Assembly (NCBI GenBank): GCA_902779165.1
Contig: CACZAN010000018.1
Location: forward strand, 1 to 64,000
DNA length: 64,000 bases
From: an uncultured Bacteroidales bacterium
GTDB taxonomy: Bacteria > Bacteroidota > Bacteroidia > Bacteroidales > Bacteroidaceae
Reading direction: 5' to 3'
The position numbers were made by a program, and so were the translations under genes. Position 1 is the first letter of the stretch, and the number at the start of each line of letters is the position of its first letter. Positions 3,467-56,895 of this stretch are shown here, piece after piece. The notes under the pieces are model-generated. The model did no database searches, had not been told where the DNA came from, and saw nothing but the letters and a program-made list of their open reading frames with translations.

Positions 3467-6400
3467 TTATGCAATTTCTCTTATTCTTGCAAAATGCATA
3501 ACGCTACCAGGAATCGGTTCCACCATATTCCAGCGTATCTGCATCTGCATCCGTGTCCCTAAATTCTTAAATTCCCAATCACTCAATGTGACTCGGCCCA
3601 AATAGACATATCCCAACGTACGGTTTTTATCCTCTACGAAGTTTTTCTGTTCGCGAACAAACAGTAACATTGTCTGGGTTTGGTGAATATATGCCTGACC
3701 TTCATTCGATTCCGGTTTTACACGATTCTGCGTATCCCACTGGAATAAATATGGCGAAAGGGCCTTGTCATCATAATCAGTTGTAGAGCCTTCTTCGCGA
3801 TTCTTAATAATATCCACAAACATGGCTTCTAGATTCATCTGTTTATTACGCTCCACACCTTCACGTGCTGATGATTTTTTCTCAAGCGTCGATGTACCAA
3901 TAGCTACCTGTATCTGTGCCTTCGTATAGACACCATGCAACTTCAACGGGAAGTTTGGTAAAAGAGAATTGTCAGCCTTTTCGTATGCTTTGTTATCATT
4001 AAGCAATAAAGGCATCACTTCTTTCAGTTCCTCACAAAATAAAGTATCTCTCGAAAGTGCGTCAACCATTTCCTGAAGGTTTTGGAAACGACCAGCATTT
4101 TCAAATAAATCGTAATACAACATCAGCAACCGCTTCTGGTCAATAGCATTCATCTCGGAGACCTTGACCCTAAATGACTGACGAGCCAACTTCTCGATGA
4201 AACTCAAATATGAATGCGAATCAGTAGCCAGCCATTTACGGAATACTGCACGGCTCAATTCTTCGTTGTAAGCTGACTGCTTATGCTTAATCCCAGCTTC
4301 ATACATTACCTGATTCCACGTTCTGTTTCTATATAGTTTATCCAGCGGAAGCTGGTATATCTTAACAAAATTGGTAAGAGTGAGCGGCACTGAGTGGTGT
4401 CTCTCAAAGTTTTGTACCAACGCTGTGACTTTCCGTGCCGTGAAACGCTGTATGGCCCCCTTGATATTGTTCATGATGTACTCTTTCGCCTTAGGCTCCA
4501 AAATAATCCGACATCCCAAAGGCAGATGAGGACAATCGCGCTCAATTTCCTCAACGACACTCATCGAAGTACGTCCCAGCATTACACGCATACGATCGGT
4601 ATAATTGAACTCTGCACGGCAATTACCCACGAAATCGAGGATGTTCACATGGGACTTCCCTACAGCCTTGCGCAAACCACGTCCGAACTGCTGGATAAAC
4701 ACAGTGAGGCTCTCCGTAGGGCGAAGGAACAGGATGGTGTCAACTTCAGGTATATCCACACCCTCGTTGAACATATCCACCAAAAACAGGTAGTTTATCT
4801 CCTTGTTCTTTAATCGCTTGTAAAGTGGCGCACGCATTTTGGCGTTCTCGCTGGTCAAAACATCTGCTTTCAATCCACACAACGTGAATTTTGATGCCAT
4901 ATATTTAGCATGTTGCTGGTCAACACAGAAACATAAGGCCCTGACATCTCGGATATTCGTCAAATACTTCTGTAAAGACTGTAGAATTACAGCGGTACGG
5001 GCATCATTGTAACTATATATACGCGAAAGTTCAGATGCAACATAATGACCTTTGTCCCAAGCGACTTCTGAATAATCGACGGAGTCTGTTATACCATAAT
5101 AACAGAATGGAGCCAGCAAACCTTTGTTCAAGGCATCATCCAAACGAATCTCTGCTGAGATAGTTCCATCAAAATCTTGTGTAATGTCTTCTCCATCCAT
5201 TCGTTCAGGAGTTGCGGTCAGTCCTAATAGCACTTTAGGCCTAAAGTGGTTGATAATCTTACGATAAGACGATGCAGCCACGTGATGAACTTCATCAATA
5301 ACGATGTAATCATAGTAGTCAGCAGGAAATGGTAAACTATCCAAACGGTTGTTCAACGTATCTTTAGAGGCAAACACGTATTCATAGTTTGCTGGTTCTT
5401 CGCCTCCATACCACTTCTCGCCAAAGTTGTAGTTAGAGAGCACTTGTCGGAAGGTCTGTAGACTTTGCCGTAGGATTTCTTCTCGATGAGCTACAAACAA
5501 CAAGCGAGCGCGCTCATGTTTCTCAGTAAATGCCTTATAGTCACTGGCGGCCATTACGGTTTTACCAGTTCCCGTTGCTGCTACCACCAGATTGCGCCAA
5601 TGGTTGCGTACCTCGCGCTCCACCAGCAAACGTTCAAGAATCTCCTGTTGATAGTCAAAGGGATGAATCAATCCTTTAAGCGTTGAAAAGTCTATCTCAT
5701 TATCTACTTCCTTGTTTAGGGCCGCTTTTAGCCGCTCGTTATCCTCGCCGTTAACATACGTATCGTAGCCATCGGCCCACCATGAAGCATCAAAGGCACC
5801 GAGAATGGTCTTCATCATTCGCGGTTGCTCCATCTGTGTCACCTTCACATTCCATTCCGCACCAGTATCAAGTGCTTGTTCAGAAATATTCGAAGAACCA
5901 ATATATGCTGTGTTAAAACCCGTATCGCGAAGAAAAATATAAGCTTTGGCATGTAGACGTTCAGAAGTGATATCATAGGTAATCTTGATTTCCGTATTCT
6001 TCAACGCTGCCAGTTGAGTGACGGCCTCATAGTCAGTAGCCTGCATATAGGTCGTCGTAATGACCTTTAGTCGACCACCTCTGCAGGTAAAATCCTTCAA
6101 TTGTGGCAAAATAAGGGCAAGTCCACGTTTCTTGATGAACGACACCATCAATCGGATTTCATTGGCTGAAATAATCTCTTTCTGCAGCTCTGTGTACATT
6201 TTCATGCCCTTGCCCGTAAATAGTGCACCGTTTACCAGACCTTTCATAGGCATCATCTCTTCCAACCGTTTTGCCAAATCAGGATAATCCGATTGTGTCT
6301 TATCAATCACCGCCGTCAGAATCTTGGCCTGAGCAGACAATAGGTTTCCAGAATCCAAATGGAACTCATTGACCAGCTTACGAATGATGGCATTAGCTAG

Positions 6401-7159: not shown

Positions 7160-7480
7160 CAAAAAAGCTTTCACCTTTCACAAATGGGGTCTAAGGATTT
7201 GAAATTCATGATATTGCAAGGTGAAAGCTCTTTAAAAAGCTTTCACGAAGCTTTCACCAGGCTTTCACTCATCATTTGTGAAAGGAACTGCTGATTGCAT
7301 GAAAGGAGTTTGGGAGGTTTCGGAGGTAGGGTAGGTTGTGGTACATTGGAGTTTTTTGGGAGATCATTTAGTGAATCTTTGGTGAAAGCTTGGTGAAAGC
7401 TTTTTGGAAAAGTTTTACGATGTAAGCAATTGTAATAAAGGAGTTTGCATGGCGTTCGTGAAAGATGAAAGCTTTTTGAA
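7160..7480. repeat. Array of direct and inverted GGTGAAAGCTTT oligomers upstream of vapE-like gene
   Basis: At least eight copies of GTGAAAGC or its complement GCTTTCAC occur irregularly, some adjacent (GGTGAAAGCTTGGTGAAAGC near 7381) and some facing each other across AAAAAGCTTT. They lie in the untranslated stretch between an F-type repeat and the ATPase gene. The arrangement resembles clustered protein-binding sites or replication iterons; function is inferred only. Confidence 0.55.
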
Positions 7481-45451: not shown

Positions 45452-45906
45452 GTGACGAAACTGGCAGGTGAGTTTTTGGTGAGTTTTTTGTTAGGTTTTG
45501 AAACGTAAATATTGGGCACAACATTCTAATACACAGGGTGTTGTGCCATTTTCCGTTAGGTTTTGCATGTTTTTCTCAAAAAACTTTCTACAGACCCCCT
45601 CTCAAAATTTTTTTTTCGGAAAAAAGATACAAAACCTAACATAGAGTGTGTTAATGTGTTAACTTACAGCCGATTACAAGCCTGTTTTTAGCTTCAAAAC
45701 CTAACGAAAACCTAACGAAAACCTAACAAAAACCTAACAAAACCTAACACAAACTAACCAGGCTCTTCGGTTCGCAGCCTTCAGATAATTCTCTATTGAA
45801 GTATCGGAAGTGATGTTAAAGCACCACGTCCCGTTGTTTCGGCTTATACGTCCAGTCCCTCAGCTGACGACCCGAGGCTCGTCAAGGCTTACGTCCTGAT
45901 ATCTGA
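45452..45906. repeat. 455-bp direct repeat L1
   Basis: Near-identical to L2 (48764-49220), with about 17 differences counted by eye. Its left part carries GTTAGGTTTTG boxes, its right part a run of CAAAACCTAAC boxes in the opposite sense, and its right end an inverted F-type ACGT-rich segment (45829-45906). No open frame. The remaining 45907-46115 up to the secreted-protein gene holds only a weak hairpin AACGG-TCTATAG-CCGTT (about 46044-46060). Confidence 0.85.
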
Positions 45907-48763: not shown

Positions 48764-49220
48764 GTGACGAAACTGGCAGGTGAGTTTTTGGTTAGTTTTT
48801 CGTTAGGTTTTGAAACGTAAATATTGGGCACAACATTCTAATACACAGGGTGTTGCGCCATTTTCCGTTAGGTTTTGCATGTTTTTTCTCAAAAAACTTT
48901 CTATAGACCCCCTCTCAAAATTTTTTTTTTCGGAAAAAAGATGCAAAACCTAACATAGAGTGTGTTAATGTGTTAACTTACAGCCGATTACAAGCCTGTT
49001 TTTAGCTTCAAAACCTAACGAAAACCTAACAAAAACCTAACAAAACCTAACAAAACCTAACACAAACTAACCAGGCTCTTCGGTTCGCAGCCTTCAGATT
49101 ATTCTCTATTGAAGTATCGGAAGTGATGTTAAAGCACCACGTCCCGTTGTCTCGGCTTATACGTCCAGTCCCTCAGCTTGACGACCCAAGACTCATCAAG
49201 GCTCACGTCCTAATATCTGA
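48764..49220. repeat. 457-bp direct repeat L2
   Basis: Second copy of L1 (45452-45906), same orientation, about 96% identical by eye. Same plan: GTTAGGTTTTG boxes on the left, CAAAACCTAAC boxes at the right (about 49009-49062), ACGT-rich inverted F-type segment at the end. It finishes 12 bp before the nuclease-like gene. Confidence 0.85.
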
Positions 49221-52817: not shown

Positions 52818-52879
52818 GGTTATAAGGTCGTGAGGTGCTGAGGTGCTGCTTCACCTCATTACCTCACGACCTTATAACC
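52818..52879. terminator. Strong hairpin, probable terminator of sdhB
   Basis: GGTTATAAGGTCGTGAGGT (52818-52836) is perfectly complementary to 52861-52879, with an inner GAGGTG/CACCTC stem. It lies 16 bp beyond the sdhB stop. There is no long T-run, so it may also act as an RNA-stabilising stem. Confidence 0.6.
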
Positions 52880-52895
52880 TCACAGCCTTACAGAG

Positions 52896-53654
52896 TTAGT
52901 CGGCCAGCTTTGCCTTGATGAACTCGCGGTTCAGGCGGGCAATATTGGCGATGGTCTCGTTCTTCGGGCACACAGCCTCGCAGGCGCGGGTATTGGTGCA
53001 GTTGCCGAATCCGAGTTCGTCCATCTTGGCGACCATGGCCTTGGCGCGCTTGGCAGCCTCTACGCGGCCTTGTGGCAGCAGGGCGAGCTGAGAGACCTTG
53101 GAGCTGACGAAGAGCATGGCGGAGCCGTTCTTACAAGCGGCGACGCAGGCGCCACAGCCGATGCAGCTGGCGCAGTCCATGGCCTCGTCGGCATCCTGCT
53201 TGGGAATGAGGATGGCGTTGGCGTCCTGAGCCTGACCGGTGCGGATGCTGGTGTAGCCACCGGCCTGAATGATCTTGTCGAAGGCAGAGCGATCGACCAT
53301 GCAGTCCTTGATGACGGGGAAGCCGGCAGAGCGCCAGGGCTCTACGGTGATGGTCTCGCCGTCCTTGAACTTACGCATGTAGAGTTGGCAGGTGGTGGCG
53401 CCACGCTCGGTCTTGCCGTGAGGCGTACCGTTGATGTAGAGCGAGCACATGCCGCAGATACCCTCGCGGCAGTCGTGGTCGAAGACAAAAGGTTCCTTTC
53501 CGGCCTCAATGAGTTCCTCGTTCATGATGTCGAGGGCTTCGAGGAAGGAGGTGTCGTCGGGAATGTTCTTCAACAGGTGGGTGTCGAAGTGGCCCTTCTC
53601 CTTCGGGCCGTTCTGTTTCCAGAATTTTATTGTTACAGAAATATTCTTTGCCAT
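52896..53654 (-). CDS. sdhB: Succinate dehydrogenase/fumarate reductase iron-sulfur subunit
   Basis: 252 residues from ATG 53654 ([16 protein letters not shown]). Carries the electron relay between the flavoprotein and the membrane cytochrome. [2Fe-2S] ligands in [13 protein letters not shown] (Cys62, 67, 70) with a later Cys89; [4Fe-4S]/[3Fe-4S] ligands in [14 protein letters not shown] and [12 protein letters not shown]. In these anaerobes it works mainly as fumarate reductase. Its gene is separated from sdhA by the S23-type gene. Confidence 0.95.
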
Positions 53655-53664
53655 GATTTTTTTT

Positions 53665-53701
53665 AGTTGACAAGTAAACAAGTTGACGAGTTGACAAGTT
53701 G
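53665..53701. repeat. Octamer array, left arm around the S23-type gene
   Basis: Units of TTGACAAG/TTGACGAG, plus CAAGTAAACAAG (53671-53682). The opposite complement of these units flanks the other side of the gene (54101-54186), and CTTGTTTACTTG recurs at 54067-54078. Confidence 0.7.
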
Positions 53702-54052
53702 TTACTCTAAAGTTTTAATGAGAGCGGAAAGCATCCTGATTATTTCTGAAATCTGGTCTTGCAAGATATTTAGCTTATCCTCAGAAGCGAAACCAAGATT
53801 CCGTGAAATCATAATCTGTGTTTCTAATTCTGATGCTGATCCCAGAGCATTACTGAGGAACTTGACCGTTTCTTTTCCATAGAGTCTGCCATAGCCTTCA
53901 GAGATATTGGATGGAATGGAAACCGCTGCACGACGCATTTGTGATACAATCCCAAAAAGTTCATCTTGGGGGTAATCACGCGTAACCTTATAGATATCGG
54001 TTACAAGCTCCATGCTTTTTTTCCAAACAACCAAATCCTTGTGGTTTTGCAT
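53702..54052 (-). CDS. Four-helix-bundle protein (S23/IVP family)
   Basis: 116 residues of the S23 ribosomal / 23S rRNA intervening-sequence protein family: starts [19 protein letters not shown], with [10 protein letters not shown] and [16 protein letters not shown]. Members form pentameric four-helix bundles; relatives include the Avd factor of diversity-generating retroelements, but no retroelement is here. It lies between sdhA and sdhB on the same strand, enclosed by inverted octamer arrays that reach to its own stop codon. Probable recent insertion into the operon. Confidence 0.88.
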
Positions 54053-54100
54053 GTCTACTAACGTCTCTTGTTTACTTGAATTGGTTATTATTGTTTGTTT

Positions 54101-54186
54101 TAACTTGTCAACTCGTTAACTTGTCAACTTGTCAACTCATAAAATGAACCAACTTGTCAACTCGTCAACTCGTCAACTTGTCAACT
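54101..54186. repeat. Octamer array, right arm around the S23-type gene
   Basis: Nine or so units of AACTTGTC/AACTCGTC interrupted by CATAAAATGAACC. The array begins directly at the sdhA stop codon TAG (54185-54187). It is the inverted complement of the left array. Confidence 0.7.
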
Positions 54187-56173
54187 AATTCTTATAATTT
54201 CTCGTTTGTACCTTGATTGCTTCGTACTCCAGAGGCTCCTTGATGAGTTCAGGATCCTTGTCGGCACCCTGATACTCCCAGCAGCCGACGTAGAAGTAGT
54301 TCTCGTCATCGCGCTTGGCTTCGCCTTCCTCCGTCTGGTATTCCTCGCGGAAGTGGCCGCCGCAGCTTTCGTTACGGCTGAGTGCGTCGTGAGCCACAAG
54401 CTCGCCCATCGTGAAGAAGTCGCGTAGGTGGATAGCCTTATCAAGTTCTACGTTGAGGCCTTCCTTGCTGCCGGGCACGAAGAGGTTGGTGTCGAATTCC
54501 TTCTGCAGTTCCTTCATCTTCTGGATACCGGTCTTCAGACCCTCGGCGGTGCGACCCATGCCGACATATTCCCACATGATGTGGCCGAGTTCCTTGTGGA
54601 TGCTGTCTACAGAGCGCTTGCCCTTGATGCCCATCAGGCGGTCGATCTCAGCCTGTACGCCCTTCTCTGCCTCTGCGAACTCGGGCAGGTCGGTGCTGAT
54701 GCGCGGCCAGATAGCTTGATCGGCGAGGTAGTTCTGAATGGTGTAGGGGAGAACGAAGTAACCATCGGCGAGACCCTGCATTAGAGCACTGGCACCCAGA
54801 CGGTTTGCACCGTGGTCGGAGAAGTTGCACTCGCCGATAGCGAACAGTCCGGGAATGGAGGTTTGCAGCTCATAATCGACCCATACGCCGCCCATGGTGT
54901 AGTGGATGGCGGGGTAGATCATCATGGGCTTGTAGTACTTCACGCCATTAATCTCGTTGGCGAGGTCGCCGGGATAGACATCGGTGATCTCCTCGTACAT
55001 GTCGAAGAGGTTGCCGTAGCGCTGCTTCATGGCGTCGAGGCCAAGGCGGTTGATGGACTCGGAGAAGTCGAGGAACACGGCCAGACCGGTGTTGTTCACG
55101 CCGAAGCCCTTGTCGCAACGCTCCTTGGCAGCACGGCTGGCGACGTCGCGGGGCACGAGGTTACCGAAGGCGGGATAGCGGCGCTCCAGATAGTAGTCGC
55201 GGTCCTCTTCAGGAATCTCCCAGCCCTGCAGCGTACCTTCCTGCAGCTTCTTGGCATCTTCCAGCTTCTTGGGCACCCAGATGCGGCCGTCGTTACGCAG
55301 GGACTCGGACATCAGCGTCAGCTTGGACTGCTTGTCGCCATGTACGGGGATGCAGGTGGGGTGAATCTGTACGTAGGAGGGGTTGGCCATGTAAGCGCCC
55401 TTGCGGTAGCACTGAACGGCAGCCGTGCAGTTGCAACCCATAGCGTTGGTGGAGAGGAAGTAAGCGTTGCCATATCCGCCGGTAGCGATGACGACAGCGT
55501 TGGCGCTGAAGCGCTCCAGTTTGCCGGTCACCAGATTCTTGGCGATGATACCGCGGGCGCGGCCATCAACGATGACGACATCTTCCATCTCGTAGCGGGT
55601 GAAAAGTTTCACCTTGCCGGCCTGCACCTGTGCGCTGAGGGAGCTGTAGGCGCCGAGCAGCAGCTGCTGACCGGTCTGACCCTTGGCATAGAAAGTACGG
55701 CTCACCTGTGCGCCGCCAAAGGATCGGTTGGCCAACATGCCACCATATTCGCGAGCAAAGGGAACGCCTTGTGCCACACACTGATCAATGATATTGTTGC
55801 TGACCTCGGCCAGACGATAGACGTTGGCTTCGCGAGCGCGGTAGTCACCGCCCTTCACGGTGTCGTAGAACAGACGATAGACAGAGTCGCCGTCGTTCTG
55901 GTAGTTCTTGGCTGCATTGATACCGCCCTGTGCAGCAATGGAGTGTGCGCGACGGGGGCTATCCTGAATGCAGAAATTATAGACGTTGAAGCCCATCTCG
56001 CCGAGTGAGGCAGCGGCGCTGGCACCAGCCAGGCCCGTACCCACAACGATGACGTCGAGCTTCAGTTTGTTCTTCGGGTTCACCAGGCGCTGATGTGCCT
56101 TGTAGTTGGTCCATTTCTCAGCAACGGGTCCCTCGGGTATTTTGCTATTGATTTTCTTAACTTTATCTGACAT
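54185..56173 (-). CDS. sdhA: Succinate dehydrogenase/fumarate reductase flavoprotein subunit
   Basis: 662 residues. FAD-binding [19 protein letters not shown] near residue 40, [17 protein letters not shown] with the covalent-FAD/His region HSIAAQGG, and substrate-site segments [12 protein letters not shown] and [15 protein letters not shown]. Interconverts succinate and fumarate on the cytoplasmic side. ATG at 56173, 35 bp after sdhC. Confidence 0.96.
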
Positions 56174-56208: not shown

Positions 56209-56895
56209 TTAACCACAAATGGGTGCACCGCCCCAAACGGCGAATTTGATGAGTACGGCGAAGAACATCAGAATGACGATCGTGGACCACCAGAAACCGA
56301 TGCACTGCCAGCGATTCAGCCAGATCTTGCCGCTCCAACCAATGGTTTGGATAGCGCTCCAGAAACCGTGGTTGATGTGGAACCAGATGGCACAGAGCCA
56401 GATGACGTACAGCACCACGAAGACGGGCTGAGCGAAGGTCTGCTCGATCCAGGCGTAACCGTCGCTGGGCGAGGGCAGCTGGACATAAGCATTACCCATC
56501 AGCTCACTCCACATCATGTTGTACCAGAAGTTGTAGAGGTGAAGGCAGAGTCCCAAGCAAACGATGATACCCAGCACCAGCATGTTCTGACTGGCCCACT
56601 CCACCTTTTCGGGCTTGTTGGTAACATTGTAAGAATCGGCACCGCGAGCCTTCTTGTTCTGCAATGTCAGCCAGATGGCATAAATGAAGTGCAGTGCCAT
56701 CAGGGCCGCCAAGCCAACGGTTGCGACCACGGCATACCAGTTGGCGCCGAGGAATTCGCAGATCATGTTGTAGCCTTCTGCGCTGAACAGGGCCACTACG
56801 TTCATGCACGCATGAAACGTCAGGAAGAGAATTAAGGCCAAGCCTGTCACGGACATGACCACTTTTCTTCCAATGGATGAATCAATTAACCACAT
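56209..56895 (-). CDS. sdhC: Succinate dehydrogenase/fumarate reductase cytochrome b subunit (B-type)
   Basis: 228 residues with five hydrophobic helices and histidines in FHACMNV, LMALHFIYA, LCLHLYNF and IWFHINHG that can bind two hemes, the diheme B-type arrangement (Bacillus/Wolinella). Anchors the SdhAB dimer and exchanges electrons with menaquinone. First gene of the sdhCA-(S23)-B operon. Confidence 0.93.
   Translation of the reverse strand: MWLIDSSIGRKVVMSVTGLALILFLTFHACMNVVALFSAEGYNMICEFLGANWYAVVATVGLAALMALHFIYAIWLTLQNKKARGADSYNVTNKPEKVEWASQNMLVLGIIVCLGLCLHLYNFWYNMMWSELMGNAYVQLPSPSDGYAWIEQTFAQPVFVVLYVIWLCAIWFHINHGFWSAIQTIGWSGKIWLNRWQCIGFWWSTIVILMFFAVLIKFAVWGGAPICG

Follow-up and report, generated by a model that had tools for sequence, protein, structure and literature searches.

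The window analysed here, a stretch of 64,000 nucleotides from an uncultured Bacteroidales bacterium, carries on its minus strand a succinate dehydrogenase operon in which sdhA and sdhB are separated by a gene of the S23 family (PF05635) with arrays of inverted octamers on either side. In the direction of transcription, sdhC (56209-56895) is followed by sdhA, encoding the fumarate reductase/succinate dehydrogenase flavoprotein (54185-56173; 1131.9 bits against NF005749, cut-off 866), the stop codon of which is contained in the outer end of the 5' array. This array, upstream of S23 (54102-54186; Tandem Repeats Finder period 8, 10.5 copies), is composed of octamers GTTGACAAG and GTTGACGAG with one short break, and an extra array unit, CAAGTAAACAAG on the S23 strand, lies between it and the S23 start (54067-54078). 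The S23 or four-helix-bundle gene (53702-54052) encodes 116 aa and matches PF05635 with 129.5 bits (cut-off 33.8) and the TIGR02436 'four helix bundle protein' profile with 129.3 bits, the nearest solved structure being 2gsc_A (E 1.1e-23). Its stop codon is adjoined by the 3' array (53665-53701; Tandem Repeats Finder period 8, 4.6 copies), whose units are the reverse complement of those of the 5' array. The iron-sulfur subunit gene sdhB (52896-53654; NF005746, 400.8 bits) is untouched by the 3' array, an A8 tract (53657-53664, minus strand) lying between them just ahead of the sdhB start. All of these features are on the minus strand.

The two arrays match each other closely: positions 53663-53701 are inverted to 54150-54188 over 39 nt with 92% complementarity, and CAAGTAAACAAG at 53671-53682 forms an exact inverted pair with CTTGTTTACTTG at 54067-54078. 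The inverted-match score of the flanks of this S23 gene is 31.5, compared with a maximum of 19 among 810 control positions. When folded as RNA, the gap gives -164.3 kcal/mol versus -116.5 +/- 5.9 for 100 shuffles (z -8.1), and the predicted structure is one long stem with S23 in the loop. The original prediction had described an S23 gene parting sdhA from sdhB inside inverted octamer arrays that touch the sdhA stop and the S23 stop, and the PF05635 match, Tandem Repeats Finder and the inverted-match search confirm this layout, the right array overlapping the former stop and the left one abutting the latter. The exact 'inner pair' that it named is exact and inverted, but this description is only half right because the left member sits in the outer half of its array. 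Directly downstream of sdhB (52831-52890), the window also contains an octamer hairpin of TGAGGTGC and ACCTCATA without S23.

The arrangement recurs around S23 genes of the same genus and order. At least 101 distinct S23 ORFs were obtained from these groups, with loci chosen from among the matches listed, and 92 were scored after leaving out 6 at contig edges and 3 fragments shorter than 75 aa. Flanks with an inverted-match score of 13 or more, a cut set after the controls had been seen, accompany 80 of the 92 S23 genes (among the matches listed), compared with 10 of 810 positions drawn at random from the same stretches and 3 of 54 genes of 80-220 aa called there; 12 of the 92 S23 genes, likewise among the matches listed, score below it. 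At a score of 20 or more, the figures are 56 of 92 S23 genes, again among the matches listed, and 0 of 810 random positions. The 80 array-bearing copies do not represent 80 independent events, since flank homology ties them into 27 groups, namely 10 linked sets (63 copies) and 17 singles. Of the 6 Pfam-grade S23 copies in the genome of the window, 4 pass the cut; the arrays of the other two, L112 and L116, do not register as inverted on this score. The matched flanks are tandem arrays, with a period of 7-8 nt in 122 of 131 scored copies, and their unit and period vary from copy to copy, even inside one genome, while the two sides remain complementary.

S23 genes in arrays of this kind mostly lie in sense orientation between the genes of an operon. 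In the genus set, where genes were called with a codon model, the upstream neighbour lies on the S23 strand in 76 of 76 cases and both neighbours do so in 70 of 74, compared with 193 of 293 control genes that are co-directional with both neighbours; the broad set gives 46 of 49 versus 78 of 118 controls, orientation being derived from codon or residue models and not from an annotation pipeline. A cruder longest-ORF call, prone to antisense frames, finds both neighbours co-directional in 57 of 80. The median distance is 3 nt from the upstream stop codon to the beginning of the 5' array and 8.5 nt from the end of the 3' array to the next start, with an A content in the 12 nt before the downstream start of 0.49 (57 loci) versus 0.25 at random positions. 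Domain searches, with gene names of our own reading, place S23 inserts in operons such as groES/groEL, serC/serA-like, pheT/yebC, etfA/acyl-CoA dehydrogenase and decarboxylase/spermidine synthase, and a table for Flavobacterium columnare in PMC5524665 has a four helix bundle protein between guanylate kinase and nicotinic acid mononucleotide adenylyltransferase. Lying in sense orientation between cistrons is consistent with an element that exploits the transcript of its host. As an observation apart, from about position 4505 onward in L070, the heptamer array downstream of S23 extends in frame into the beginning of a serA-like ORF, whose N-terminus is repetitive (NVQCSMF). The upstream ORF of L149 (Stygiobacter electus), GDP-mannose dehydratase-like by our own reading, contains an in-frame repeat, SAEVQSAEVLSAEV, that is perhaps intragenic array DNA.

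The sequences of the arrays follow the gene that they enclose. Among S23 pairs of at least 70% identity at sites unlinked by flank homology, either directly or via a third locus, 8 of 14 show an arm similarity of 12 or more, compared with 4 of 1121 pairs below 25% identity. Across unlinked sites of the genus and order, arm similarity is rank-correlated with S23 identity (0.29; Mantel, 0 of 1000 permutations). In the etfA copies L039, L048, L062 and L090, which occupy the same site in sister species, the units are quite different and the two sides still match. Because arm similarity tracks S23 identity and same-site units differ while their sides agree, the sequence comparisons indicate that the arrays travel with the S23 gene and drift fast, in step with each other. 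An AGT core, present in 19 of the 32 different units seen in one subfamily versus 7.7 expected (0 of 500 shuffles), may serve as a lead towards recognition. Between phyla, arm similarity is nearly flat, with a mean of 5.1 at 50-60% identity versus 4.5 below 30% and a rank correlation of 0.152 that lies above all 1000 permutations, so that a conserved recognition code is not claimed.

The sdhA-sdhB gap itself is variably occupied. Among 32 related genomes it is a clean spacer of 4-26 nt in 22 (exactly 8 nt in 13 of these), holds S23 in 5 and contains an unrelated palindrome in 5; 30 of the gaps are those of the highest-scoring loci among 50 genomes in which sdhB was matched, and L019 and L068, two of the five S23-bearing gap genomes, were added since they carry S23. 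The unrelated inserts (L120, L121, L122, L124 and L128, from G016, G067, G072, G084 and G011) are 127-168 nt long, with ends like GACCC...GGGTC and inner palindromes. In a tree of the sdhA/sdhB flanks that includes the named-scan loci described below, empty and filled gaps alternate at shallow depth, and its supported branches require at least 7 changes of the 'empty' state, with a bootstrap that has not settled. The S23 phylogeny rests on the broad set because a motif filter removed nearly all genus rows, and the window's own S23 was placed in a separate, later tree. The S23 genes of the window and of G002 are not part of the clade formed by the S23 genes of closely related genomes, and AU tests reject grouping them as their hosts group (p 0.0155 and 0.0036); the other S23 type as one clade is likewise rejected by the host tree (p 0.0104), and for L159/L163 inside the TCGTTTAG group the host order is not rejected (p 0.346). 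In L206, a distant Bacteroidetes genome, the sdh gap holds a second S23 clade with other repeat units. No empty/filled pair inside a single species was found among the genomes compared, and no clear target duplication was seen, the TTA..TAA at the window unit's ends, which would fit a 2-bp TA duplication, being ambiguous against cross-species empty sites.

The association extends well beyond this order. A named scan of a one-genome-per-species collection yielded 148 loci, of which the best 80 were taken and 78 scored; among these, 51 of 78 pass the cut and 27 fall below it, compared with 10 of 780 controls. Passing copies come from Bacteroidota, Ignavibacteriota, Melainabacteria, several candidate phyla, Elusimicrobiota, Bacillota, Acidobacteriota and Nitrospirota. 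S23 genes also occur on plasmids: 22 records matched, 8 were examined of 10 among the matches listed, and 7 of these 8 have inverted matches scoring 15 or more, in a sample without a control set of its own. Their units include AAAAGGG in Geminocystis, GGGAACA in Nostoc edaphicum and AAAAGCT in Pseudanabaena galeata, where the S23 gene lies between cas6 and cas4, and 5 of 7 annotated plasmid copies are co-directional with both neighbours. On a plasmid of Calothrix sp. PCC 7716 (L281), S23 (1501-1881) is opposed to both neighbours and has no arrays; on one of Stanieria sp. NIES-3757 (L285), S23 (1498-1848) is again opposed to both neighbours and scores 15. S23 was not detected in a phage collection at E 1e-8.

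The window's octamers are also found at places without S23. The pattern GTTGACRAGTTGACRAG has 36 matches in the window's own genome, at about 15 places of which one has S23, and occurs in 26 of 61 genus genomes, with 35 lacking it; the reversed control gives 0 throughout. The 14 extra places in the own genome (L236-L249) are mostly solo arrays, and L237 and L242 are compact inverted pairs that lack S23 and contain runs of window unit variants, such as AACTTGTCAACTCGTCAACTTGTTTACTTGTC in L237. S23-less pairs with other units occur as well. Octamer arrays are present in 3 of 3 genomes with a cognate S23 and 23 of 58 without (p ~0.07), a link too weak for S23 to be accepted as the driver of the dispersed octamers. 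The largest number of pattern matches in any genome, 132, was observed in G018.

These features closely resemble an established class of rRNA insert. The 23S rRNA intervening sequence (IVS) of Coxiella burnetii, as described in PMC4990558, carries an S23 ORF and inverted ends that form a 28-bp stem; two or three tandem heptamers (GACAGAT), with a further degenerate copy, directly precede the S23 start, and an RNase III site lies at the first of these repeats. S23-type ORFs are also reported from 16S and 23S rRNA inserts of CPR bacteria (PMC11270868). Relative to that Coxiella account, the window unit shares the S23 ORF, the complementary ends, the position of the ORF in the loop and the patchy presence, with a length of 522 nt here and 428 nt there, and in both cases tandem repeats adjoin the S23 start, as heptamers of strain-variable copy number in Coxiella and octamers here. 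Unlike the rRNA inserts, the window unit lies in mRNA between protein genes, has longer, fast-changing arrays on both sides and belongs to a type with several copies per genome and different units in each, and its cutting by RNase III is suggested by analogy. Its location in the sdhA-sdhB gap is outside rRNA, and Rfam gives no RNA family in the 20 S23 loci submitted, the window's included, so the unit is not a member of the rRNA IVSs proper, whose definition its location fails. Because the anatomy is that of the Coxiella IVS in another host RNA, it is instead read as an intercistronic IVS.

We consider it on balance probable that the window unit is a mobile element, consisting of an S23 gene in inverted arrays and lying on the sense strand between operon genes, that is the intercistronic counterpart of the rRNA IVSs and whose stem in the mRNA is cut by RNase III. 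According to this model, the two arrays would pair in the operon mRNA and make S23 the loop of a long stem, reaching from the upstream stop codon to about 8 nt before the next start. By analogy with the S23-bearing 23S rRNA IVS, we infer that RNase III would cut this stem and thereby excise the RNA, freeing the S23 message and leaving sdhA and sdhB as separate messages that could still be translated. The element would thus occupy a place where RNA cutting does no harm, and the S23 pentamer would presumably bind the arrays. The patchy presence, the clean empty sites and the arrays travelling with the gene also lead us to infer movement, for which some machinery would be required. The arm mismatches do not point to RNA: in 80 elements there is no excess of G.U, with 54 G.U versus 83 A.C (pooled p 0.016), and counted by element the figures are 19 versus 27 (p 0.30), in arms whose homogenisation limits the power of the comparison. 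The imbalance is in fact in favour of A.C, so the counts do not indicate that selection acts on an RNA stem as opposed to a DNA repeat, and the solo arrays and S23-less hairpins of the same octamers also count against an IVS-type reading. The minimal mobile unit originally predicted, one small gene with variable octamer ends that might be excised or processed at the RNA level, is on the whole supported: its patchiness, its clean empty gaps and its variable ends, with units that differ among copies, are upheld, whereas the RNA-stem test lent RNA-level excision no support. Comparison of sdhA-sdhB spacing, with 22 of 32 genomes empty, agrees with an insert and not with a fixture of the genus, and the arrays expected around S23 genes elsewhere were found in 80 of 92 cases in the genus and order and 51 of 78 across phyla, though not around every one.

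Several other explanations have to be weighed against the intercistronic IVS. Chance proximity, with S23 genes merely happening to lie in genomes full of short tandem repeats, may draw on the abundance of solo and paired arrays without S23, a search of 709,585 bases giving 39 such pairs away from S23, some of which overlap or enter the count through two stretches; it is scarcely credible, as only 10 of 810 control positions and 3 of 54 small control genes from the same stretches pass the cut, only 7 of the 39 S23-less pairs have a gap of more than 150 nt compared with 79 pairs that enclose S23, and the pattern is also present in other phyla. A more serious competitor is a transposable element acting at the DNA level, in which the arrays would act as terminal inverted repeats that S23, or a recombinase assisting it, recognises as DNA, the RNA stem would be incidental and the S23-less hairpins would be non-autonomous derivatives. 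The missing G.U bias and the clean empty sites suit such an element, as do the roughly 15 genomic places with window octamers, only one of which has S23, and the window unit variants in the compact pairs L237 and L242. Nevertheless, S23 has no recombinase family match in Pfam or NCBIfam at E 0.001, units and periods vary between copies in a way that fixed terminal repeats do not, and octamer-rich genomes mostly lack a cognate S23 (all 3 genomes that have it carry arrays, and so do 23 of the 58 that lack it). Insertions in antisense orientation or between convergent genes would also be expected of such an element, and an opposed upstream neighbour occurs in 0 of 76 genus copies. We regard a DNA-level element as rather unlikely.

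The S23 gene might alternatively be a resident regulator, inherited with the operon and often lost, whose product binds its own arrays in the transcript and so modulates or insulates the gene that follows, in the manner of a ring-shaped protein that binds RNA. The homopentameric ring seen in an S23 crystal structure (PMC4990558) would suit this role, as would the AGT core of one subfamily (19 of 32 units versus 7.7 expected), and in the broad set 17 of 18 sdh-site S23 genes cluster together, with one other-site row among them, at a support of 87/87. What makes such a regulator improbable is the patchy presence with shallow changes of state, the conflict between the S23 and host trees, the insertion into unrelated operons (groES/groEL, pheT/yebC, serC/serA and etfA/acyl-CoA dehydrogenase) and the second S23 clade, with other units, in the sdh gap of L206.

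Several known classes of repeat or element are also reminiscent of the unit. REPIN/RAYT systems combine one gene between inverted repeats with dispersed, gene-less inverted pairs of like sequence. The window unit is similar in that its gene is flanked by inverted repeats and gene-less pairs exist (L237, L242 and others), though most octamer arrays are solo and their link with a cognate S23 is weak; it differs in having arrays of short units instead of a fixed palindrome and in lacking a Y1/HUH transposase between the repeats, where Pfam gives only PF05635 and a sub-cut-off bAvd. The weak bAvd and Avd profile matches, both below cut-off, recall the Avd protein of diversity-generating retroelements. 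The Avd profile NF033474 gave 24.3 bits (cut-off 80), and no reverse transcriptase is linked to the gene, the sole RVT_1 match in the genome (86% complete) being on contig C17 and S23 on C18. Unlike insertion sequences and MITEs, the copies share no fixed terminal inverted repeats and differ in unit and period. Intergenic tandem arrays of 7 nt are described for Xanthomonas (GGGAATC) and Nostoc (PMC4692102) and, as TAACTGA, for Beggiatoaceae and others (PMC4679880), with 70 convergent inverted heptamer pairs given for Xanthomonas campestris (PMC4692102). The S23 genes of cyanobacterial plasmids sit in heptamer arrays like those reported in these accounts of Xanthomonas and Nostoc, and the term S23 has 0 occurrences in the main texts of PMC4692102 and PMC4679880.

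S23, IVSs and heptamer repeats are each already known; for S23 genes bounded by inverted short-repeat arrays in operons, no account was found in the open-licence literature. IVSs have so far been treated as inserts in rRNA genes, and S23 as a protein without known function. If S23 units are indeed common operon inserts in many phyla, nature provides numerous comparisons of empty and filled sites in which to test what they do and how they move, and an origin would be offered for intergenic heptamer repeats whose published descriptions leave them unexplained. A practical caution is that 'four helix bundle protein' genes in housekeeping operons may not belong to the pathway. A much wider version of the intercistronic reading is put forward only tentatively, as a possibility that would more readily fail than hold: selfish 'mRNA intervening sequences' spanning phyla, in which S23 would sit at operon stop/start junctions and be cut out via self-made, fast-drifting inverted heptamer stems read by the S23 ring, the rRNA IVSs would be copies that landed in rRNA, and much of the intergenic heptamer content of Bacteroidota, Cyanobacteria and Xanthomonas would be debris or non-autonomous kin.

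Inverted arrays of other periods are present elsewhere in the window. Positions 45467-45758 and 48779-49071, about 3.3 kb apart, are near-identical stretches of about 300 bp with arrays of 10-11 nt (GGTTAGTTTTT/AAAACCTAAC) that are inverted within each copy, and they may be the ends of a larger unit. At 7237-7402, inverted 11-nt arrays (AAGCTTTCACC/TTGGTGAAAGC) enclose a gap of 98 nt without S23.
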